Part shown: one piece after another, positions 2,094-59,400 of the stretch
Layout: each line of letters opens with the position of its first letter
How positions within the stretch are numbered: position 1 is the stretch's first letter
NCBI GenBank assembly: GCA_963575745.1
Contig: CAUYUJ010020615.1
Span: 1,002,736-1,066,735 of the forward strand
DNA from: Prorocentrum cordatum
Taxonomy: Eukaryota; Sar; Dinophyceae; Prorocentrales; Prorocentraceae
DNA: 64,000 bases
Direction of reading: 5' to 3'
The notes under the pieces: generated by a model
Seen by the model: the letters and a program-made list of their open reading frames with translations, nothing else
The model's database searches: none
What the model was told of the DNA's origin: nothing
Position numbers and translations under genes: made by a program

Positions 2094-2450
2094 GGGCCAG
2101 AACTGGCGGAGCGACACGCTGTCCAGAAGTTCCCAGCCGTACTCCGACACCATCCAGGGGGGCGTGGGCACGAGAACAAGCAGCTGCATCAACTATCACT
2201 GTTGGAGCTCCGCGCGGATTTCCTGGATCGGCGCTGGACCCCCCTCCCTGGCGCGCTCCGCGCGCCAGGGGCGGAGCCAGAGGCGCCGCCAGTGGGGCCC
2301 AGCGCCGATCAAAAAAATCCCCGCGGACCTCAGAGCATGCATTTCTGTGCCTCCTTGTATCCTGCGAGGACAGGAGGACGACCCGCGGCACCGGCCTTGA
2401 AGACGTCCCCCTTCGACACCACCATCGAGTCGGTGGGGCTGAGCGCCATG
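2094..2450 (-). CDS. Unidentified protein, two exons split by a family A repeat
   Basis: Upstream minus-strand exon (about 2450 to 2376) reads 'PTDSMVVSKGDVFKAGAAGR' then PPVL. The downstream exon (about 2171 to 2094) reads VPTPPWMVSEYGWELLDSVS then LRQFWP. Between them lies the palindromic repeat. The flanks carry an imperfect direct repeat, CCTGTCCTCG against CTTGTTCTCG (8 of 10). Collapsing it joins the two readings in frame, as in the channel gene at 52.8-59.2 kb. The protein is not recognised. The right-hand limit is arbitrary, and the left end runs into a TCC tract after a possible CAG. I infer a real gene from the in-frame junction only; expression is not shown. Confidence 0.45.
2172..2375. 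mobile_element. Family A palindromic introner-like element, copy 2
   Basis: The left end 'gaacaagcagctgcatcaac' matches the ends at 53377 (gaacaagaagaactgc), 55648 (gaggaacaaacag) and 54858 (gaaaggaaaaaactgc). The central hairpin pairs 'gagctccgcgcggatttcc' with 'ccccgcggacctc'. Boundaries are set by analogy and are good to about 10 bp. Confidence 0.7.
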
Positions 2451-16391: not shown

Positions 16392-16428
16392 CTTGAACCA
16401 AAATGGCTTGAACCAAAATGACTACGGA
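16392..16428 (-). other. Dinoflagellate spliced-leader relic: full SL followed by truncated SL
   Basis: On the minus strand, 16428-16407 matches the 22-nt dinoflagellate spliced leader (D-CCGTAG, then CATTTTGG and TCAAG cores) with two C-to-T differences. It is followed without a gap by 16406-16392, 'CCATTTTGGTTCAAG', a second leader lacking its first 7 nt. The truncation point is just after the internal TAG of the leader. That is the junction expected when an mRNA already carrying an integrated SL is trans-spliced again using the AG inside the old SL. Leader-on-leader arrays of this kind are established marks of recycled cDNAs in dinoflagellates. Confidence 0.85.
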
Positions 16429-30060: not shown

Positions 30061-33000
30061 GGCCTCGTTCTTGTTTGGCTGTTGACGTGGCCGCTCCAAG
30101 GAGCTGTTCTGCCGTGGCCCTGCGGCGCGCCGCCTCGCTTGGGCATTGCTGCTGGGTCCCTCTACGCTCCGTTCCGCTGTTGAGCCAGGCCATGCGGCAG
30201 ATGTCCTCTGCCGCTCTGCGCTGGCTGTGTTGTCTGCCTGGCCCTGGGGCATCACTGAAGAGCCGCTGGCATGGGCCAATCTGGAGCGTCCTCAGCACAT
30301 ATGGCACGCACGCTGCACTCCACGTCTGCCAGCCTCGCTCGCCCGCTTGTTGAGGCCAGCCTCCTGCCAGCGATTGCACGCGCTGCTCAAGGCGGTTCCT
30401 CTCGAGCCAGGCCGGCTCACGCTCAGGGCCTTCTTCTTCTCCTCTTTGCTGGGGGAGCCGCGGGTGCTGCATGCCTGCCTCCTTGGCCTCCCTCGCGTAC
30501 TTCATCCGGTCGGGCCCTGTCGGCTTGGCGATCCTTGGCGTCTCCTGCAAGGTCTTGCTGGCCCTGTCGCTGGTTGTGGTGGCGTTGAGCTGGTGTACCT
30601 CCTCTACGGTGTCCTTGCCATGATCACTGCCTTGGCCTTCCAGCTCTGGCACCTCGCTGTCTGGTTGCGTTGAGTCGTCGTCCAGTTGCTCAGGTGTCCA
30701 CGCCCTGCGGCCTTCCTCCGTGCTGGCTAGCGGCCTGCGCACACTGCTGGGGATGCTGTGGTTGATGATGGTCATCCACCTGCCCAGGAAGGCTTCCATG
30801 TGTGCCCTAGCCGCCTGCTGTCTGGTGCCGTACGGGAGGGTGAGCATGTGTGTCATGAGCCTCCTTCTCGCTTTGTGGGTGCTCTTCCAGATGTCCTCGC
30901 AGAGGTCGCTGATCTGCTGGATCCCCCTTGGCGTGGCTGCACTTTTTTGGTTTTGGGCGCCCGTCCTGCCTCCAGTGATGACGGCGAGCAGGTACGGGAC
31001 ACTGTGCTCCATCCAGTCGTCCTTGTCTTCCCGCACGTCCTGGTCCACCATGTTCATCCACTGCTCCGCGTAGCCCTCCATGTGGTCCACCACCTGGCAG
31101 CTCATGTGGCCTGCTGGGTGGGGATGCCTTGGCGGTTGTGGCTGAACTGGCTGCAGTGTCTCTGATTCCGAGCTTTCTCCGTCCAGGTCGATCACCTCTG
31201 CGTTGCTCTCCCTTAGGTTGAAGCCGTTGAAGCCCGCTGTCTTGGCCTCCTCTGGTGGCGCGGCTGCCGCTTTGTCCTCGTCCTGCTTTGCTCTTCGCGG
31301 CAGCCTCCCCTTCTGCAAGTCCATAATGATATTGCTCCCCGCTGTGGTGGGCGGGACACATGGCTTGGCCAGCTCGCGAGCAACGCCTGCAACGATTCGG
31401 CTCGCGTGGTTCCCGAGGTAGCTGGTGGCCCCGCACTTCTCGCACCAGAGCCAGCCCTGCGCGAGCTGCATCTTGTGGGCGTCGTGGGCGACCCGCGTGC
31501 CGATCTGCACTGTCTCGAAATCGAGCCTAACATTCCCGTGCGGGTGCAGGTGGCTGCTCTCTCTTCCTTGGCATTCACCCGTCTCGGCTAGCCAAGCTGG
31601 CACTCCTTGCCCTGTGGCGGGACCGCTTCTGCAAGTCGCACGCCACCATCTCGGGTGTAGTTTGCGCAGGTCATGGCCGAGCTGTGCTGCCTTCTCTCTT
31701 GCATTGTGTGGCCTTTTGCGCTTGGCCTTCGGTCGCTGCGTCGCCTTGTTGGGGTCATCAACCATCACCGCCATGCTGATGCCCAGCAGCCTATTCTGGA
31801 CTGCCACCGTGACCTGGTCCCTGATCTGCTGCTGCGCAATCATGGCTGGGTCCAGCGCTCCATGCTCCGCCCCCCAGCTTGCGCACTTGTCTGCCATCTC
31901 ATTGCCTATGACCCACCACGTCGGCCCTGTCCACCTTTCCAGCTCCGTCGGGTGCTCGATCATGTGGCTGGGGATGTGGTGGCCCATGATGTTGTCGGTG
32001 CTGTTCTGGAGCTGCCGCTTGGCCATTAGCCAGAGGTCGAAGTTGGTACTCCTGTAATCGAGGTCCTCTGGGTCTTGGATCTGCTCGAGGGCGTCCACGG
32101 CGCGCTTGCAGTCGCTGGCGATGTTGAGCCCACGTGCTGAGGCCGCCGTCGTGTAGCCGATCGCCTTGCTTATGGCCGTGAGCTCCGCTCTTGACACCGT
32201 GTGAGGCGCCCTTACTGTGCCGTACCAAGCTGCCACCTCCTGGGGCAGGCCGTACTGGTCGTACTTGAAAGCCACGATTGCCCAACCACATCTACGTAGC
32301 CTGGGGCCCTTGGCAGTCTCACCTGCCCCCCCAGAGCCGTCCGTGAACACGTAGTCAGCTTGAACTTTGTGGCCTTCCTGGACTGCTGCTTGTGCCTCCG
32401 CATTGGTGCAGAAGATGTGTGCCGCCTTCTTGACGTCCTCTTCTGGGTCCACTTGTACTGCCCATGCTGCTGGTGGGATACCTCTGAGCCAGAAATGCTC
32501 GTCCTGCTGCTGGTCGAGCGCGTCGATGGCCTTCTTGACTATGTCTGTGTTGTTGCTGTGGCCAATCTCCTCGTATGCAAGGCAGGTGTAGTAGCGGTGC
32601 TTTTCCGTCTCGATGGCCTCTCCGCACCTGGCGCAGGTGTCTTCACCTTCCTGGTTGAGGTTCGCTGCTCTGCGCCGCTCCCGCGTCCAAATACCTGCCA
32701 CTGTAATGGTCTTCAGCATGGCCGCTTCAGCGTGCTGCCCTTTGCGTCGCCTCCTCCTCAAGTGTCTTTGCAGCTGGTAGAGGTCGCCTCCCTCCTGCAG
32801 TCCTGCGCTGTGTCGGTGCTCTGCCGCTTGCTGCCAAAGCTGTTGCTGGGCGCTCTGTTGGACCTCCTGGAGTAGCGCTCCGAAGTGTGGGATGTCTTCT
32901 GGTCGGTGCGCCCACTCCTCTCCTGCTGGGCTGGTCCAGCTATCCAGCCGCCATGGGTTCCAGCCCGGCCCCGGCAGCTGCACAACGACTCCTGCCATGG

Positions 33001-43670: not shown

Positions 43671-45746
43671 ATGGACCTAAGCGGAATCTCGAGGGGCCAG
43701 CACACGTTCGAGGACTTGAGGCCGAGCGCGATGAAGAGTACACCGATGCCTCCGAATCCAGTCGAAGTGCCAGTGCCGGGAGTTGTTTCAGAACGAGTAG
43801 AAGAACCACGACAGACACCTGAGCCCGAAGCTCAGCCATCACCAGCAGGGAGCGTTGGGACGCCTACGCCACCACCTACACCACCATCGCAGATAGAAGA
43901 GGTTGCGCCTCCGGCACCAGTGGTGGAGACGGTGTTCAACCAAGCCGTCGAGACCCCAGTCCCGGACCTAGACACGGAGACGCTGCACGCGATGAACGAC
44001 GTGTTCTCGCTGGAGCTCCTTCCTTTCCAAGCAGGCACCAAGGGGAAGGAGTTGGACTCGCGGAAGTTCACGAAGGCGGAGTGGCTCGGGTTCAACAAGA
44101 GCATCGCCAAGAACTGGAGCCAGCACCTGGAGCACGAGGCCGCCAGGGTGGTCCTGCCCGACGAGGCGGCAAAGGTCGACAAGTCGAGGATCTTCAAGGT
44201 GCCGGCGCGCTTCGTGCATACTCTCAAGGAGGGCCAACCGAACAGCCGACTCGTGATCCCAGGCCACCTCGACCCGGACAACCAGGGCAAGCTTGGCATC
44301 AAGCACGCGAAACGCATGGCGGTTTCGTCGGAGACGGCAGGCACGCGGACAGATGCACCAGTGGCGCCCATGGTAGGGCCGATGCTGCTGCTGAACTTGG
44401 CAGCGCATTTCGGCTGGGATCTCGGGACGTTCGACATCGGCTCGGCGTTCCTCGCCGGCAAGACGAACACGAGACGGTTATATGTGATGCCTCCCCGGCA
44501 AGGGCTGCCTGGAATCCCTGGTGGAAGCTTGGTGGAACTACTCAAAGGTGTATTCGGACTACGAGAATCCCCTCGTTTATGGCGGGGAAGGTTCTCGGAG
44601 GTGTTGATTCAGGCCGGCTTCCAGCCGCTCAAGACCATGAAAGGAGTTTTTGTCATTCGGGACGACATGGGCAAGGTCGAGGCGGTCCTGTGTGTTCACG
44701 TCGATGACGGACTCCGGGGCGGCACCGGCGAGCGTTTCGCCAGAGCGAAGAAGATCGTTCGCAAGAAGCTGAACGTGACCAAGGAGAAACAGGGTCGGTT
44801 CGAGTTCCTCGGCCAGCGCATCAACCAGCTGCCGGACAAGTCCATAGAGGTCGACCAGCACGAGTACGTCGAGAAGATGGAGAAGATCTTCGTGCCGGCC
44901 TCCAGGCGGAAGGACCCCGAGAGCAAGGCGACCGAAGAGGAGCTCTCGGAATACCACAGCCTTGGACAAAAATTATCGTGGCCCGCGCGGACGACACTAC
45001 CCGGACTAGCCTATGACGTCAGCGACCTGCAACAGCGGACGCCGGACTTGACGGTCGGCCAGCTGTGCAAGGCGAACACGGTGTTGAACATGGCCAAGGA
45101 GATGGTGACGCGTGACGTTAAGCTACGATTTCATCGCGGAGATGGATCGGGGCGATTTGGATGCATGTGCGTACACGACGCCTCGTACGTCAGGCAGCCG
45201 AGGAGTGGATCGCAACAAGGGTTCATCCTACTGCTCACCGACGAGAAGTTCGACGCCAAGAAGGTCAACGTGGTGAACTGGTGCTCGAGCAAGATCCATC
45301 GTGTGGTGCGATCTACATTGGCAGCGGAGGCGGCCAGCGCGAGCTACGGGTTCGACAGGGCGTGCTTCGTGAGGACGGCGTTGGCCGAGATGCTGTACGG
45401 CTGGGAGTCAGAGAGCGACTGGACGACACTGATGGGCAAGATCCCCAGCCTGTGCGTGACGGACTGCAAGAGCTTCGTCGACCTTTGCCGGAAGGAGGGG
45501 AGCATGCCGACGGAGAGGAGGATCGCGTTAGACCTCGCGGACCTTCGAGATCGATTGGAAGCCGGAGACGGCTTGATATGGACGGACACCTGCCTGATGC
45601 TCGCCGACCCCCTGACTAAGCACATGAAGGACCAGAGCTATTTGGAGCACGTCCTCAAGACGGGTGAGTACGTCTACAGGTGCAAGTACGAGACCAAGGC
45701 GGAGAATCGTGGCGGGGGTGACCCCGGAGAGAGAGTGGCGTCCTGA
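43671..45746 (+). CDS. pol: Copia reverse transcriptase and RNase H
   Basis: 691 codons, in the same frame as the integrase end but after its TAA, starting at ATG 43671. A Pro-rich linker (to about 95) precedes RVT_2-type RT: 'KSRIFKVPARFVHTLKEG', 'FDIGSAFLAGK' (motif A, D255) and 'CVHVDDGL' (catalytic D345-D346). Copia RNase H follows: 'CVHDASYVR', 'HRVVRSTLAAEAAS', 'VTDCKSFVD' and 'LIWTDTCLMLADPLTK'. All key acidic residues are present, so this part looks intact. Without readthrough of the TAA it would be made separately or not at all. Confidence 0.94.
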   Translation: MDLSGISRGQHTFEDLRPSAMKSTPMPPNPVEVPVPGVVSERVEEPRQTPEPEAQPSPAGSVGTPTPPPTPPSQIEEVAPPAPVVETVFNQAVETPVPDLDTETLHAMNDVFSLELLPFQAGTKGKELDSRKFTKAEWLGFNKSIAKNWSQHLEHEAARVVLPDEAAKVDKSRIFKVPARFVHTLKEGQPNSRLVIPGHLDPDNQGKLGIKHAKRMAVSSETAGTRTDAPVAPMVGPMLLLNLAAHFGWDLGTFDIGSAFLAGKTNTRRLYVMPPRQGLPGIPGGSLVELLKGVFGLRESPRLWRGRFSEVLIQAGFQPLKTMKGVFVIRDDMGKVEAVLCVHVDDGLRGGTGERFARAKKIVRKKLNVTKEKQGRFEFLGQRINQLPDKSIEVDQHEYVEKMEKIFVPASRRKDPESKATEEELSEYHSLGQKLSWPARTTLPGLAYDVSDLQQRTPDLTVGQLCKANTVLNMAKEMVTRDVKLRFHRGDGSGRFGCMCVHDASYVRQPRSGSQQGFILLLTDEKFDAKKVNVVNWCSSKIHRVVRSTLAAEAASASYGFDRACFVRTALAEMLYGWESESDWTTLMGKIPSLCVTDCKSFVDLCRKEGSMPTERRIALDLADLRDRLEAGDGLIWTDTCLMLADPLTKHMKDQSYLEHVLKTGEYVYRCKYETKAENRGGGDPGERVAS

Positions 45747-48790: not shown

Positions 48791-49599
48791 CCGCGGATAG
48801 CTCTCCGGAGCCGAGAGGGGCTGGAAAGGAGAGGCCTCCCAGATAGGGCCGGAGCGCATGGGGTCGCAGGATCCCGCCGCACCACCTATGCGTCGCCGAT
48901 GCACTGGCGACGTTGGCGATGCATCGGCGATGACAGCGTGAAGAAAATCGGGCTCCATCCACATCGAGCCGCATCGCCAATGCATCGGCGATGCATCGGC
49001 GACGCGGCGCCATCCTCCGACCCCTTCTGCTCGGACCCCATCTGGGAGGCCCACAGGAAGGGCTGAGGCTGAGGCTGAGGCTGCGCCTATGTCGTCCCAG
49101 GGGGACGGCCCTACGCGGGGCTAGGCGGTGGCGCCGGGGCGCCGGCATCACTCGAACGTCGCATATCATACACAGGCCAACTGATTCCACACCCTGCGGT
49201 TCTGTCGTTGAACAACGCTTTGTGCGGGACACGTGCAAATCTTCCATATCTGCCCAAAGGAAGGGAGAGGGGGGAAGGAGGCGGGAGGGAGAGGTCCAGC
49301 ACGAAGTCAACGGGCCCCCGAGGAGAGGGAGGTCCTCGACGCGGGCCGCCGCGCCGCTGCGCTCCTGCGCCCCTCCACGGGCCCCATCTCGGTCGGCACA
49401 AAGGGCTCAGGAGAAGCAGCTCCTCTCGCCATCGCTCGGACGTCCATTCCGCGTGCATGTTTCGGCTTCGTGCGTGTATCTCTTCGCCAGGTGGTCCAAA
49501 ATTCTCCTCGACTGTCCCCGCCGAGAGCACACGCACACGTCCGAGCGATGCAAAGTCCCGGGGAAAGCTCCTAGGTCTGGGATCCGGGACCCTCGGGCT
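48791..49599. repeat. Family C-like and family L repeats; no gene
   Basis: 48895-49010 repeats 'gatgcatcggcgatg' words shared with family C. 49434-49560 is family L, with inverted ends 'tcgctcggacgt' and 'acgtccgagcga'. Nothing coding is supported between. Confidence 0.6.
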
Positions 49600-52777: not shown

Positions 52778-55700
52778 TTACCGTGCCGCCACGGCTTGCG
52801 AGCCCGCGAAAGCGTCGGCGAGAACGGCGTCCTGGTACGGCATCTCGCGCGACCTCGGCTCCAAGCGGGAGTTGCAGACCCAGTGGAAGGCGATCACCAT
52901 CAACGGCAGTCCCCACATCACGTAGAACTGCCTCCCTCCCTCCCCGCCTCGCTCCCCATCCGCTGCCCGCTGCACACTTGCCACTTGCACCGATCCTGGC
53001 CAAGCCGATCCTGGGCCCAAGGTCGGTACCACCGCCTCTCCTGGCCATGCAAGAAGCGCGTCTCCACGGGTCCTGGACACAGGACAGGCCTGGCTAGGGC
53101 CAGCATGTGATGATCGTTGGCATCCACATCCCCGTCCCTCCATCCCTCCATCCCCCCAGACCTGGAGGTCGCCGCGGTGTTCAGCCCGAAGATGCCGCAG
53201 AGCGCCAGGGAGCCGCCGAGGAGCCCGAACATGGAGCCGTTGAACATCTGCCGCCACCAACCGCCGTGGCAATCGAACTCCTGCGAGTACACGTGCCGGA
53301 AGAGCCAGCGGTACATGACGGAGGAGAGCCCGAAGTACAGGGCGCATACTGGCAAAACAAGGGGGGCCATAGAACAAGAAGAACTGCCCGAACATAAACT
53401 TTCGGAGGTTCGCCTGGATTTCTTGGATCGGCGCTGGGCCACCCTGCCTGGCGCGCGGAGCGCGCCAGGAGTGACGCCGAAGGCGCCGCCAAGCCAAGGG
53501 GGCTCAGAGCAGATCCAAGAAATCCGCGCGCACCTCAGAAAAAGGATGCTTGTGCCATGTGTTTCTTCTTCGGGGCTATGACGGCGTACATGAGGCCGAT
53601 GACGAGCACCACCGTCAGATTTGTGCACTCGTAGACGAAGTCACAACCCGCCGCCGCGCTGTGCCACGGACGGTGCGTGTCGGGCCCACTGACTCCGTCG
53701 CTGGCGACGCATTCTCGCGTCTCGCGAACTTTTGGGGGTCGCAGAAACGGTGACCTCTGTCGCGCTTGCACTGAATTCGGCGGTGGACAAACCTCCCTTT
53801 AGTAAACCTCCCCTTAATGAAAACGGCCTGGGACCGAAACCGACGGACCTGGACCCGCAAAAACGACGGCCGCGACGCCCCCTCGCGAACCGAAAACGGC
53901 CAATTCCTTAATCGACGTGTCAGGCTAGGAGGTCTATCCGCCTCCGATGAATTCTCCTCTTGGCACTGCCTTTCATCGCGTTTCCCAGTGACAAACCGTG
54001 CGGTGACACTAAAACCTCACCGAACGGTCTGTCACCGCACCGTTGTGAGACCTCGGAAGCCATAGAAAACTCGAGACATTCTCGGAGAACGACTCAAGCC
54101 CCCAAACCGTGCGCTGCCCCGAGCCCCCGACGACACACCACACGGTGTGGTCACCGCACCGTTTGGGGGCCCACGAGACCGGACTGCCGGCCCCCCGCTC
54201 GGCCCAAGGTGCATTCAAACTATTTGCTCAAGAGTCTCTGGTTGGCTTTTGGGCCCTCCAAGCAAAACCGTGAATGCCAGAAACGGGTTCCATGGTGGGC
54301 CGAGGGATGACAAGCAAGAAAAGCACCATTAACCCTTTGGGAGGGGGCCTAAGTTAGGAGGGCCAGAAACATTAGGGCTAGGGGGTCTATTCTTCAGACG
54401 TATCTGACCAAGCCGCCCAGATGTATCATCCCTGAGGCAAGGACGTGGACCCAAGTGAGGCCACGCCTTCACTATGTTGTTAGGGTTAGGGGCTCTTTGA
54501 TCCGATGAAGGAAGGGGGCCTCTCGACACAGCCCCTCCCTCCTCGTCCTCCTCCTCCTCCTCCTGCTTCTCCTCCTCCTCCTCCTTCTGCTCCCCCTCCC
54601 CCTCCTCCTCCTCCTCCTCCTCCTCCTTCTCCTCCTCCTCCTCCTCCTCCTCCTCCTCCTTCTCCTCCTCCTCCCCCTCCTCCTCCCGCACCCCCCCGCA
54701 GAGCCTCCCCCCACACAACTCGGTGGCGGCCGCGCGCGGCAGCTGCACTGGATACACGGGCGCCGGGTCCCCGCCGGAGCCGCTGCTCTTGGCGCCGAGC
54801 GCGCTCGTCAGCGCAGAGAGGCGCAGCAGCAGGAAGGGGAGCGTTGTGCCTATGCTAGAAAGGAAAAAACTGCATAAACAGAATTAGCTTTGGAAGGTCC
54901 GCGCGGGTTTCCTTTGATCTGGGCCAAAACACCCTCTTGCACGCGGAGCGCGCCAGGGGCGGCGGCGGAGACGCTGCCAGGGGGCTCCAGCACAGATCTA
55001 AGAAATCCGCGCAGACCGTCGAAAGATTATGCTTATGCCGATGTTTTACCTTCGATATGCGAACGACAACCCAAGTAAAGAAGCACACGGACAGCTTCGG
55101 GATCGTGTTGCCGAGAATCTGCCCCACACAGAGCGGGTGCAGGACGGCCTCCTGGAAGCTGTCGAAGATGGTCCCAGACACAGTTAGGAGGTAGAGCGAG
55201 GCGAGCTGGAAAGCAATGTTGCGGCTGAGCGTCTTCTGGGCCACCTTGTGCTTGAGCTTGCGACCCTCGAATCTCTCGGCCATCTGCTGGAGAATGCAGG
55301 GCAGGGCCAGGAGCAGCCCCATGATGGCCAGTATTGGCAGGTAACCTGTCAGCAGGCTGTACGCCCAAGTCTGCGACAGCCAGTTCTCCAGCTCTGGCGC
55401 GTAGGCCCTCAGACTCTGGGGGTGGGTTACGCCCTGGATAGCGATCAGGGGCACCGACCAGAACAGAACGCCAACGAAGCACAGCAGATTGGCCGCTTGC
55501 CCGCGCAACTGCACGAAACGGTCAGGGAGGCCGACGTTCTCCCAGATGAGGTCGTTGGCCTCCGGGGCCGGCTTGACCTCCCAATCGAAGTAGTCGTAGT
55601 GCCCGTCGAGGCAGGAGGGCGGGAAGAGGACCTGACGTTCCGCAGTGATAGAGGAACAAACAGTGATACAAACATGAGAACTTTGAGGTCCGCGCGGATT

Positions 55701-58700
55701 TCTCGGATCGGCGCTTGACCCCCCCTGCCTGGCGCGCGGAGCGCGCCAGGGGCGGTGCCAAAGGCGCCGCCAGGGGGGTCCAGCGCGGATCCGATAACTC
55801 CGCGCGGACCTCCAAAAGTCTATCTTCGTGGCGTGTTTTCTTCTTCGAGGAAGAGGACCTGACGCTCTGCAATGAGCCTGTCCCTGAGCGACCCGAAGGT
55901 CACGAAGGCGGTGCCGGAGTGCTGGTCGCGGCTCGCGCCGCAGCAGGCCCACCCGAGGGCGCGCAGCAGCCGCTTCCGCAGGGAGGCGGCGCCGCGGTCC
56001 GAGCCCTGCCACGCGACCCCGTGCAGCGCGGTCGAGTGCACGCTCAGGGACAGCTCGGCGAACGCGCGGCGCAGAGCCTCCTCGCTCCGCTCGGGCCGTG
56101 CGAAAGGGGGGGATAGCAAAGTGGGGCTTTGAGAATCAGCTCGCGTAGCTGACTTTCCCGGCGCAGGCGCCCATGCATCGAGGAATGGGCCCGGCGGCGG
56201 GGCCGAAATCAGCTGCATGCAGCAGATGTCGTAGCCCCCCCTTTCCCTATCCCCCCCTTGCGCTCGGCCCGATCCGCACCGTGGGCGGCACCCTCTCCAC
56301 CATCACCGAGTACTGCGCCTGGGCGGCGGCCACGTCCAGGTCGCCCAGCGCGGCCGCCGAGAAGCGCTCGCGCCGCATCTGCGCGAAATCGGACCACTCG
56401 GCGCGCACTAGAGCGAAGAACGCCAGCGCGACCACGTAGGCCGCCAGGACCACCGCCCACAGCTGCCAACCGTCCCCCATGCCGAGGTTGGACACCGTGC
56501 TGCCGAAAAAGCTCGACGAGCCTGAGGCGACTCGCAAGCTCTCCTTTCGGCGGCGCGCCCGGGGGGGAAAAGAGAAGAGGCGGGCCTCCTCAGAAGGCGC
56601 GGAAGTCCCTGGGCCTTCCGAGAGGTGTCCTGGGCCTTCCCCGAAGACACAGAACGCTGCTCAGAAGGCGCGAGGGCCTCTGAGAAGTCCCGCCGCCTTC
56701 TGCGAGGGCCTTCTCCCTCCCATTTCCCCCCCTCGGCCGCCGCCGATCCTTGGCGATCGCTGCGCTCACGTCCCTGCCGCTCTCTGCGATCCCGGGCACC
56801 TTGGAGACGCGGCGCGCCACGGCGAGGCCCAGCTCGCCCGTGTCTGCGGCGAGCGCCTGCATCGCCCCGGCGGCGCCGTCAGCGGGCGAGGCCGTCACCC
56901 AGACGACGACGGAGTCGTCCGAGGCCGGAGAGGCCAAGCTCAGCGAGACGCCGCCGCCGCGCCACTCGCTCTCGAGCGCGCCCTGGACCGCGGCCATGAA
57001 GGCCGCGAGGAGCGAGCTGTCGGAGACGAGGCGGCTGTAGGCCACGTTCCCGACGAGGAGGCTGAAGTCGAAGCCGCCGCCCGTCGCGGGGCGCCCGCTG
57101 CCCGCGTACATCGGGACCAGCACGAGGCCCAGCAGCGAGCAGAACAGGCAGAAGCGCAGGCCCAGCCGGCAGAAGCCGGGGGAACAAAAAAAAACCGCAT
57201 GAGCACAAACAACCTCTCGGAGCTGCGCGCGGATCCCCTGGCGGCGCGGCCTGCGCCGCCCCTGGTGCGCGCCATGCGCCAGGGAGCGGGGTCCCGCGCC
57301 GATCCCAGCAGGCCGCGCGATCCTCCAGAAGTTTTGTGCGCACATCGTCTTGCCATCGCTCGGACGTCCCTTGCCCCGCGCATGTTTCGGCTTCGTGCAC
57401 GTGTTCTGCTGCACTGAGATCCAATAGGCTCCACGATGGTCCAGATACTCTTAGGCGGCGAGCGAGGGCGGAAGTGAGAAGGGGCGGGCCTGAAGGCTCA
57501 GAAGTCCCCGGGTCTTCTGACAAGTTTTCTAAGCCTTCCCCGAAGACACAGAACGCTTCTCAGAAGGCGCGAGGGCCTATGAGAAGTCCCGCCGCCTTCC
57601 GAGAGGGCCGTCTCCTTCTCGCTCCCCCCCTCGCTCGCCGCCGAATTCTGGCGCCGTCCTCGCCGAGAAAGAACGCACGCGTCCGAGCGATGCCAAGCAC
57701 GCTAAGCACGCCTCGTTTGTTCCCCGAGAAGCGCAGCAGCACCCGCGCGTCCAGCGGCAGCGACTCGTCGCTGGCGCTGGCGCCCCGCGCCAGCGCGGAG
57801 AGCCGCCCCGTCCAGTCCGCGGGGGCCTCGGCCCCCCCCTGCGCCGAAAGGCTGCCCTCCTCGGGTGTGTACGCCGGCGCCAGCGAGCGGAAGCAGCCCT
57901 TGGTGCAACGGTTGGGAGGCGACTCGAGCCGGGTGCTGCTAGAAGTGCCCTTGGCCCAAGGTGCCCCCAGGGTTTTCTCCGAGGAGGCCCCCCGCGGCCT
58001 CAGGAGCACCCCTCAGCAGGTCCAGAGCCCAGGGGCTCCAAAACGGAGCGAAAGGCTGGGTGCACCCTGGGCCAGGGGCACCTCTAGCAGACTCCGATCT
58101 AGAGGGCGTGCTCCTATGTTGCGCGATAGCGGCCGCTGGCCCAGGCGCCTCGCCCCCCCACACCAAGTAACTCCACGATTCGTGTTGACCTCCGAACTGC
58201 CTCTGGCTATTCCTAGGTATTCCCAAACGGCGCAGTCGCGAATCGTGACATCAACGGCCCCTTCTCCCCTGCCCCTTGGTAGCGCCCGTTGCCGCCCGGG
58301 AGAACATACACAACGCTCTCCCAGTGGAGCGCAAAAGAACATTAACATACATCTCGACGGCCCACGCGGATGTCATAGACCTGCGCTGGACCCCCCTCCC
58401 TGGCGCGCGGAGCGCGCCCAGGGCGGCGCAGGAGGGTCTGCCAGGGAGGGGGGGAGCGGCCAGGATCCAAGAAATCAGCGCGGAATGTCGAAACTTTCTG
58501 ATTGTGCAGATGCTTCTTCTGCTTCTTCTTCTTCGAGACTCCTGGGAGGCTTTTGTCATCATCGGGGGCGTCGAAGGAGGGGCGTCCAAGAGGGGGTTCG
58601 CAGATCATGGCCCGAGGCATGTGCGCGGACCAAGGGGAGGGCTGGAGGCGTATTGAAGTAACAAGGGAAGCCACGAAATCAGGGTACACATCATGGTCCT

Positions 58701-59240
58701 TGCCGTGATATCACACCCCCAAAGTCACCACTCCCCTCTTGGCCGCCCCTGAGATCGGACGAAGCCAGAATCGGAAAAACAAATCTGACCAGGAGAAATC
58801 GGGAACCTCTGGGACCTGGCGGTTCTGGAGGATGTATCACGCGCCGCGGCCGTTCCAACGCATCCCCGAACACTCTCAGAGCGCTCCCGAACGTTCTGGA
58901 GCCATTTATTCCGATCCTAGGCATGCCTGGCGCAAGGACAACCACCGGCTAAGCATGATGCCTGACTGTCATGCCACTGAACCAGATTACCCTTGATTCA
59001 TCCCAGGACTAATCCCGATGAAGCCGGATTTAGCGAAACTAGACGGGATGTTGCAGATTATGCTGGTTTCCGACCGCGGATCTACCAGCGCCGATGCTGA
59101 ATTTAATCTCTCAGGAGTTGCATCCTAACCTTGGAGCCGACGGCCAGCGCCAGGAAGGCCAGGACGGCGGCGACGAGCTGCGCCGCGTTGATGGCGCACA
59201 CCTGTAGCAGGGTCTCCGTGTCGCTCCTAAGGGCGGGCAT
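52778..59240 (-). CDS. OSCA/CSC1/TMEM63-family mechanosensitive cation channel, at least ten exons
   Basis: Exons (minus): 59226-59130 (or from ATG 59240), 57898-57727, 57170-56747, 56541-56273, 56085-55859, 55631-55056, 54850-54717, 53658-53572, 53362-53162, 52931-52778 (TAA). From the ATG they total 2355 nt, exactly 784 codons plus stop, with no internal stop. Family signatures in order: a first membrane helix ('LVAAVLAFLALAV'); 'PLDARVLLRF' before a second helix; 'WQLWAVVLAAYVVALAFFAL'; cytosolic 'YSVMVERVPPTVR' and 'GTAFVTFGSLRD'; then the DUF221 region, 'PEANDLIWENVGL', 'FVGVLFWSVPLIAIQ', 'LLTGYLPILAIMGLLLALP', 'VYECTNLTVVLVIGLMYAVI' and 'YSQEFDCHGGWW'. The length is typical (700-800 residues). 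Family members are membrane calcium-permeable channels opened by osmotic or mechanical stress. An upstream exon may extend the N-terminus (see 59401). Confidence 0.92.
52932..53161 (-). other. Channel intron 9, conventional GT-AG
   Basis: Donor CCAG/GTCTGG, acceptor GGGAG/GCAGTTC, in frame. Contains 'ggccaggatcgg' palindromic words related to 35845-35880. Confidence 0.75.
53363..53571 (-). mobile_element. Channel intron 8 = family A element copy 4
   Basis: Minus ends GAAGAAGAAACA... and ...CAGTTCTTCTTGTTC are inverted repeats. The flanking direct repeat is CATAGCCCC (exon side) against TATGGCCCC (other side). Collapse gives ...VIA-P-LVLP in frame. The boundaries offer no GT-AG pair. Confidence 0.82.
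53659..54716 (-). other. Channel intron 7, GT-AG, with families H and G and a TCC tract
   Basis: Donor GAGTT/GTGTGG, acceptor GGCACAG/CGCGG, in frame. Contents: family H 53779-53950, family G 53988-54205 and (CCT)n 54538-54690. It is the only long intron in the 3' half. Confidence 0.7.
54851..55055 (-). mobile_element. Channel intron 6 = family A element copy 5
   Basis: Minus ends TCGAAGGTAAAACA... and ...GTTTTTTCCTTTCTA are inverted repeats, with a GCATA direct repeat on both sides. Collapse gives VVVRI-GTTLPFLLL, as expected for the family. Using the nearby GTAAAA and CTAG as GT-AG sites instead would break the frame. Confidence 0.85.
55632..55858 (-). mobile_element. Channel intron 5 = family A element copy 6
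   Basis: Near-perfect hairpin; arms 'gaggtccgcgcggatttctc' and 'ccgcgcggacctccaaaag'. Flanking direct repeat of about 28 bp (24 identical), perfect over CGTCAGGTCCTCTTCC. The joint can be placed at CAG/GTC, which is GT-AG, or elsewhere in the repeat with the same protein (ERQ-VLFPP). Confidence 0.88.
56086..56272 (-). mobile_element. Channel intron 4 = inverted-repeat element, separate family
   Basis: Minus ends TCGGGCCGAGCGCAAGG... and ...CCTTTCGCACGGCCCGA form a 17-bp inverted repeat (15 matches), with a GCGGA direct repeat on both sides. Collapse gives ERVPPTVR-SEEALRR in frame. The ends are not GT-AG. Confidence 0.85.
56542..56746 (-). mobile_element. Channel intron 3 = family J inverted-repeat element
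   Basis: Minus ends TCGGCGGCGGCCGAGGGGGG and CCCCCCCGGGCGCGCCGCCG are inverted repeats, with an AAGGA direct repeat. Collapse gives AAIAK-ESLRVASG in frame. The obvious alternative (donor GAC/GTGAGC with acceptor CTCAG/GC) is out of phase. A related copy ('gaagacacagaacgct.ctca') lies inside intron 2 at 57475-57640. Confidence 0.83.
57171..57726 (-). mobile_element. Channel intron 2 = composite of family A copy 7, family J and family L
   Basis: Outer ends CGGGGAACAAA... and ...TTTGTTCCCCCG are inverted repeats, flanked by GCTTCT on both sides. Collapse gives VLLRF-CRLGLRF in frame. Inside are a family A hairpin (57205-57340), family L words with inverted 'tcgctcggacg' and a family J copy (57475-57640), so it looks like insertions within an insertion. 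Confidence 0.8.
57899..59129 (-). other. Channel intron 1, GT-AG, 1231 nt, repeat-filled
   Basis: Donor TCCAAG/GTTAGG, acceptor ACCAAG/GGCTGC, phase 0. Contents: family B end (58990-59129), family P (58595-58735) and family A copy 8 (58320-58530). Short open segments beside copy 8 ('APDDDKSLPGVS', 'MFSRAATGATK') could be skipped or alternative exons. Confidence 0.7.
58320..58530. mobile_element. Family A palindromic element, copy 8
   Basis: Same hairpin core ('ggcgcgcggagcgcgccc') and minus-strand start CGAAGAAGAAGAAGCAG. Flanks CTCCCAGGAG and CTCCACTGGGAG resemble a duplicated target. Confidence 0.75.
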
Positions 59241-59400
59241 CAGGGGGGGGACTGGCTCAGGGGGAAGCATCGAGCTGGAATCGGCGATACCTCGCCGATG
59301 GATCGGCGATGGGCCCCGATAGAAAGCCCGCACGTTCCTGGGCGGGCGGGGTACAGGCGATTGGGGTACCATGCCCCCCCGTAACGTTGCCCCTCAATTC
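59227..59400 (-). mobile_element. Family C repeat, copy 4, probable channel intron 0 (GA-AG)
   Basis: Lies between the segment ending ...GYTR and exon 1 SDTETLLQ. Excision at ACGAG/GAATTG and CCTTAG/GAGCG keeps the frame (AG then GAGC). Inner ends TGAGGGGCAACG and GCTTCCCCCTGA are mirrored. Confidence 0.55.

Follow-up and report, generated by a model that had tools for sequence, protein, structure and literature searches.

Probable introners flanked by target duplications in the exons of a dinoflagellate OSCA/CSC1-type channel gene

The window analysed here, a 64-kb stretch of DNA, carries on its minus strand an OSCA/CSC1-type channel gene (52778..59240; ATG at 59240, stop at 52778), recognised by Pfam, by a match to a solved structure and by exon joining. 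Our model comprises ten exons, all on the minus strand, at 59240-59130, 57898-57727, 57170-56747, 56541-56274, 56086-55849, 55621-55056, 54850-54715, 53644-53572, 53362-53162 and 52931-52778, of which exon 7 has a provisional end and exon 8 a provisional start. Joined, they give 2343 nt and 780 residues in a single open frame, with the direct repeats at introns 2, 3, 4, 5, 6 and 8 each collapsed to one copy, introns 1 and 9 joined at GT-AG ends, and intron 7 joined provisionally. The predicted protein matches the Pfam families RSN1_7TM (2.4e-40) and PHM7_cyt (3.5e-6), with RSN1_TM (6.5e-6) lying slightly below that family's cut-off, and its residues 417-771 are matched by a solved OSCA1 structure with an E of 5.1e-31; the RSN1_7TM and OSCA1 matches bear out the OSCA-family channel gene proposed in an earlier note on this DNA, whose range of 52778..59400 contains the start codon used here. 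The closest homolog among the candidates scored is 39% identical over 53%, and third codon positions of the exons are 90% G+C (672 codons). Positions 16392-16427 on the minus strand carry a relict double spliced leader of dinoflagellates, with 33 of its 36 letters as given in PMC7557087; it marks a trans-spliced message that re-entered the genome as a copy, and it identifies the window as dinoflagellate.

Direct repeats lie across the exon boundaries of all six introns for which the earlier note had claimed them. They are exact at intron 2 (GCTTCT, 6 nt; left copy 57727-57732, right copy 57171-57176), intron 3 (AAGGA, 5 nt; 56747-56751 and 56542-56546), intron 4 (GCGGA, 5 nt; 56273-56277 and 56086-56090) and intron 6 (GCATA, 5 nt; 55056-55060 and 54851-54855). 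The intron 5 repeat is exact over 16 nt (CGTCAGGTCCTCTTCC) and can be extended by eye to 28 nt with four mismatches (55849-55876 and 55622-55649), in agreement with the roughly 28-bp repeat described before. At intron 8 the reported 9-mer is present as CATAGCCCC / TATGGCCCC (53572-53580 and 53363-53371), with seven of nine letters matching and exactness limited to the 5 nt GCCCC. Elsewhere in the gene, the GT-AG joint of our model at intron 1 sits inside a 6-nt direct repeat, CCAAGG, and the joint at intron 9 has a 3-nt repeat, AGG. Among 200,000 random position pairs, drawn from a locus that itself includes the six intron repeats, 1.0% have a repeat of 5 nt or more and 0.32% one of 6 nt or more; when a slack of plus or minus 9 nt is allowed, the shares are 3.7% and 1.0% of 60,000 draws. 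For joints 2, 4, 6 and 8, the naive chance of such repeats is 0.0032 x 0.010^3, or about 3e-9, if the joints are independent. Collapsing all six repeats does leave one open frame, as had been stated; the accompanying odds of 1 in 700 are arithmetically correct (3^6 = 729) and make a weak argument, because the repeats had been chosen by eye. Of the four positions at which the 28-nt copies at intron 5 differ, two are, by eye, synonymous third-position changes (GCA/GCG and GAG/GAA), as if one copy had kept evolving as exon.

The introns bounded by these duplications are made up of repeats that recur elsewhere in the window. Family A is a fold-back of about 200 nt that makes up intron 5 (55650..55848, minus strand; 199 nt when the duplication is taken as the 28-nt repeat; GT-AG possible), intron 6 (54856..55055, minus strand; 200 nt, duplication GCATA, no GT/GC/GA-AG reading for the best product) and intron 8 (53372..53571, minus strand; 200 nt, duplication the imperfect 9-mer given above, again with no GT/GC/GA-AG reading for the best product), so that its duplications measure about 28, 5 and 9 nt. 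These three copies are 68-69% identical in pairwise comparison, and family A is therefore old or diverse. Its core recurs in intron 2, a copy lies in intron 1, and others are found at about 2.2 kb, at 25.7 kb and at the window's left edge. The copy at 2179..2364 on the minus strand is bounded by an imperfect 8-nt repeat (TGTCCTCG / TGTTCTCG), and the frame stays open after this repeat is collapsed; a homolog search for a gene around it confirmed none, with no candidate of eight at E <= 10.

Intron 3 is element B (56547..56746, minus strand; 200 nt, duplication AAGGA, ends TCGGCGGC, GA-AG possible) and intron 4 is element C (56091..56272, minus strand; 182 nt, duplication GCGGA, ends TCGGGCC). 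Intron 2 (57171..57726, minus strand; repeat GCTTCT, no GT/GC/GA-AG reading for the best product) is compound: its outer A-like element, with ends CGGGGAACAAA, contains repeat E (57356..57690; 5-bp duplication TGCCA, ends TCGCTCGGACG), which in turn contains a B element (57451..57645, minus strand; flanks AGAAT / AGAGT by eye) that is 82% identical to the B of intron 3. E-like arms without B between them at 49421-49555 on the minus strand suggest that B moved; this is not an exact empty site, and the middle of E aligns poorly. A TCGG-ended element with the 5-bp duplication TGAAT is nested in intron 7 (53777..53947). B, C, E and the intron 7 element thus have TCG ends and 5-bp duplications (AAGGA, GCGGA, TGCCA, TGAAT), and the elements look like two groups, one TCG-ended with 5-bp duplications, the other the fold-backs of about 200 nt with variable duplications. 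The claim of at least three unrelated families is not established, as the elements of introns 3 and 4 share TCGG ends and duplications of 5 bp. When the whole 64-kb window was scanned, unsupervised, for inverted ends bounded by 5-bp duplications, the intron 4 element came first and the intron 3 element second. The scan gave 15 hits scoring 9 or more, 6 scoring 11 or more and 4 scoring 13 or more, against 0-4, 0-2 and 0 in six Markov controls; family A was not picked up by it. Within the window, similar copies stand at several intron positions of this one gene (A in introns 5, 6 and 8, B in intron 3).

Intron 1 (59129-57899) is pieced together from repeats, partial copies of which lie near 36.1, 48.8, 61.2 and 63.4 kb. 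Exact searches with a 22-mer of the A core in a viral collection and with a 25-mer of B in viral and prokaryote collections, where dinoflagellates are not expected, gave no match. A 17-mer of A occurs in three viral contigs, in matches of at most 33 bases and none better than E 4.5e-4, which we take as chance, and none of 57 pattern-matching stretches in the viral collection was confirmed as an OSCA relative.

Inverted ends were scored against shuffles over the outer 40 nt and over up to 100 nt, respectively, giving z values of 4.1 and 2.1 for intron 2, 5.2 and 9.5 for intron 3, 11.2 and 16.3 for intron 4, 2.2 and 19.7 for intron 5, 5.3 and 17.8 for intron 6, and 4.7 and 18.2 for intron 8, with -0.8 and 3.7 for intron 9 as a comparison. 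The terminal inverted repeats ascribed to all six introns are accordingly present, and are weak at intron 5 in the outermost 40 nt and at intron 2 over 100 nt. In introns 3 and 4 the pairing begins at the first base of the element. Predicted folds are more stable than those of shuffled sequences, with z values of -5.2, -6.2, -9.4, -6.3 and -6.7 for introns 3, 4, 5, 6 and 8, and for each of them none of 200 shuffles was equally stable.

The joints were scored against a profile of seven homologs, the channel gene itself being left out. These homologs (P0001-P0003 and P0004-P0007) came from two protein searches, each of which scored the 8000 candidates sharing most words, and they represent about four lineages, with P0002 and P0003 81% identical and P0004-P0006 99-100% identical; P0001 and P0006 carry MMETSP transcript names. 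All in-frame, stop-free joints within 45 nt on both sides were considered, which amounts to 12,479 products over nine introns. The repeat-collapsed product ranks first without a tie at intron 2 (of 1439 products, 3.6 bits above the runner-up), intron 4 (of 1169, 0.9 bits), intron 6 (of 1333, 1.4 bits) and intron 8 (of 1410, 0.4 bits); the margins at introns 8, 4 and 6 are small. At all four joints the alignment of the collapsed product with the seven homologs is free of gaps. When three homologs were used, joints 2 and 6 again came first, and one better product appeared at each of joints 4 and 8. The GT-AG joint of intron 9 is second of 1477, 0.3 bits behind, and the model's joint at intron 1 is outscored by 32 of 1238 products. 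Higher-scoring products are numerous at intron 3 (398 of 1566), intron 5 (277 of 1347) and intron 7 (517 of 1500); joint 3 falls in a stretch absent from the homologs and joint 5 precedes a loop of variable length in them, and these two joints, like joint 7, are not fixed by the homology seen here. The expected OSCA sequence that had been reported at each joint is therefore recovered as the top-ranked product at 2, 4, 6 and 8, while homology leaves 3 and 5 unfixed.

GA and GC donors are known from dinoflagellates, as passages of PMC7557087 describe, and we refer to GT/GC/GA-AG as tolerated end pairs. Among the equivalent cut pairs that give the collapsed product, none of these occurs at introns 2, 4, 6 and 8, a GT-AG reading is available at introns 1, 5 and 9, and GA-AG at intron 3. 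The assertion that the six introns have mostly non-GT-AG ends thus applies to four at most (2, 4, 6 and 8), with intron 5 readable as GT-AG and intron 3 as GA-AG. The six repeats offer 48 equivalent positions, at which about 0.6 tolerated pairs are expected by an estimate that assumes equal base frequencies and two are seen; those two, at introns 5 and 3, may reflect luck or actual use. Other readings were inspected by eye and set aside. A GT...TAG reading of intron 6 (AAG/GTAAAA...TTTCTAG/CATAGG) and a TTGTG repeat as the joint of intron 7 are both out of frame, and a shared GA...GCAG rule for family A is in frame at introns 6 and 8, adding seven codons at each, and finds no GCAG at intron 5.

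We interpret the segments, on the strength of these sequence features, as probable introners, inserted in exons and taken out of the transcript along with one duplication copy so that the old coding sequence would be restored; they appear most like the non-canonical introners of Amoebophrya. Removal in RNA is what we infer, and the homolog profile supports joints 2, 4, 6 and 8. Short non-autonomous mobile elements would have inserted into exons and duplicated some of the target bases, and splicing out the element with one duplicate copy would bring the original coding sequence back. The hairpins of the single-element introns may draw the intron ends together, the duplicated bases would make several cut positions equivalent, and a permissive spliceosome, aided by the hairpin, could remove the elements from the RNA. 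Where the duplication offers GT-AG (intron 5) or GA-AG (intron 3), such pairs may be used; at the other elements the cut would be made without a fixed dinucleotide, as reported for Amoebophrya. By their look, B, C and E may be cut-and-paste miniature elements, which their fixed 5-bp duplications suggest, and the variable duplications of family A suggest another possible route of insertion, for example at repaired breaks. We raise more tentatively, as a conceivable but doubtful extension, that in a dinoflagellate other than Amoebophrya the cue for removing such hairpin-forming elements is the hairpin together with the duplicated target, and not the end dinucleotides, and that the same transcript also undergoes ordinary GT-AG splicing.

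A more conventional account would have ordinary GT/GC/GA-AG splicing throughout, with insertions that altered the protein by a few codons. Introns 1, 5 and 9 (GT-AG) and 3 (GA-AG) fit it unchanged, in-frame tolerated pairs exist at introns 2, 4, 6 and 8 (14, 58, 19 and 14, respectively), and published introners include some that gain or drop codons (PMC9860276). However, the collapsed product outscores the best of these pairs by 14.1, 6.3, 6.6 and 12.7 bits at introns 2, 4, 6 and 8, where those pairs would change the protein by +9, -1, +2 and +7 codons, and the extra residues at introns 2, 6 and 8 would fall in segments that are gap-free in the homologs, which makes this account unlikely. The counter-evidence is weakest at intron 4, whose 6.3-bit deficit belongs to a GT-AG reading with one codon lost, and among introns 2, 4, 6 and 8 it is intron 4 that is least secure as lacking a tolerated end pair.

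The insertions might instead be retained in a gene that died recently, the homologs merely revealing its ancestral exons. A collapsed joint gives ancestral sequence with or without removal, and the repeat copies match perfectly at four of the six introns, as recent insertions would lead one to expect. Yet the 2343 nt contain no stop, although the divergence between repeat copies predicts 3.5 to 5.4 of them (P 0.03 to 0.004) on the assumption that the 28-nt pair and the 9-nt pair each started out identical. Of the 67 columns invariant among the homologs, 56 are retained, and we hold a dead gene to be improbable. Excision from DNA rather than RNA, whether programmed or occasional and precise, would lead to an identical product by leaving one duplication copy, and we know of no process of such a kind in dinoflagellates. 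Introns of like architecture are, by contrast, supported by RNA-seq in Amoebophrya (PMC7789003), and excision from DNA seems very improbable indeed.

Removal of introners from the transcript, the reading we prefer, has published parallels. Introners are known from dinoflagellates, as the earlier note had stated (Farhat et al. 2021, PMC7789003; Gozashti et al. 2022, PMC9860276). In Amoebophrya A25 and A120, more than 60% of introns lack GT-AG, and about 11% (A25) and 30% (A120) of the non-GT-AG introns carry direct repeats of 3-5 nt and hairpin-capable inverted repeats of 8-20 nt (PMC7789003). The elements described here share with them a dinoflagellate host, an apparent absence of a fixed end dinucleotide at up to four introns, direct repeats at the boundaries, hairpin-capable inverted repeats, repeat families and canonical introns alongside. 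The present repeats are longer, as the direct ones measure from 5 to about 28 nt and the pairing takes in most of the element; the Amoebophrya introns are supported by RNA-seq, whereas the present ones are known from genomic sequence, and Amoebophrya genomes are compact, whereas the present window is 61% G+C and repeat-rich. Judged by the features of the Amoebophrya type, tolerated ends are absent at introns 2, 4, 6 and 8 for the best product, with readable pairs at 3 and 5, and a boundary direct repeat is combined with hairpin-capable inverted repeats. The Amoebophrya-type system also includes an apparent loss of U1 snRNA from the genome; Rfam at gathering scores gave no hit in the window, which is uninformative on U1 snRNA in the genome, and a tRNA scan of the window found none.

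Introners with target duplications occur in many eukaryotes, including Symbiodinium (Gozashti et al. 2022, PMC9860276), have been reported in Prorocentrum cordatum (PMC10666404), and in Polarella fall into 15 families that each number at least 100 introns (Roy et al. 2023, cited in PMC11453091). As far as the cited passages go, these resemble the present elements in their target duplications, often inverted ends, several families per genome and splice sites sometimes drawn from the duplication (PMC9860276, PMC10666404, PMC11453091), but are described with GT/GC/GA-AG ends, which four introns here lack at the best product. A tandem array of a dinoflagellate is likewise reported to have intron boundaries that repeat identically (Mendez et al. 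2015, cited in PMC7789003). Euglenid nonconventional introns, which conserve the letters at +4 to +6 and, close to the 3' end, letters complementary to them, have variable borders, an end-joining hairpin and direct repeats, and their proposed origin from miniature transposons or break repair is similar to that of the present elements (PMC4770533); we reject this assignment, as the host lineage differs and the window holds the relict dinoflagellate spliced leader. In a partial literature search we met no account of introners lacking a tolerated end pair in any dinoflagellate other than Amoebophrya. The kind is already known, and the present elements add to it, with repeats and arms that are longer and with tolerated beside untolerated ends within one gene.

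If the joints are confirmed, one gene would hold at least two kinds of element turned intron, and family A would comprise one copy with GT-AG (intron 5) and two without a tolerated pair (introns 6 and 8). The locus would then offer a natural test of what splicing needs, be it end letters, a duplicated target or a hairpin, and gene finders limited to GT/GC/GA-AG may miss such introns and break dinoflagellate gene models.

Elsewhere in the window, an exon-like stretch at 172-363 on the minus strand lies directly before the A element that runs off the left edge; it gave no Pfam match at E 0.01 and presumably resembles a calcium-binding EF-hand. Of two retroelement fragments, a piece of reverse transcriptase lies at 44592-44930 on the plus strand (RVT_2, E 7.8e-4, below the curated cut-off), and one with RNase H (Pfam E 2.2e-6) lies at 31736-32278 on the minus strand.
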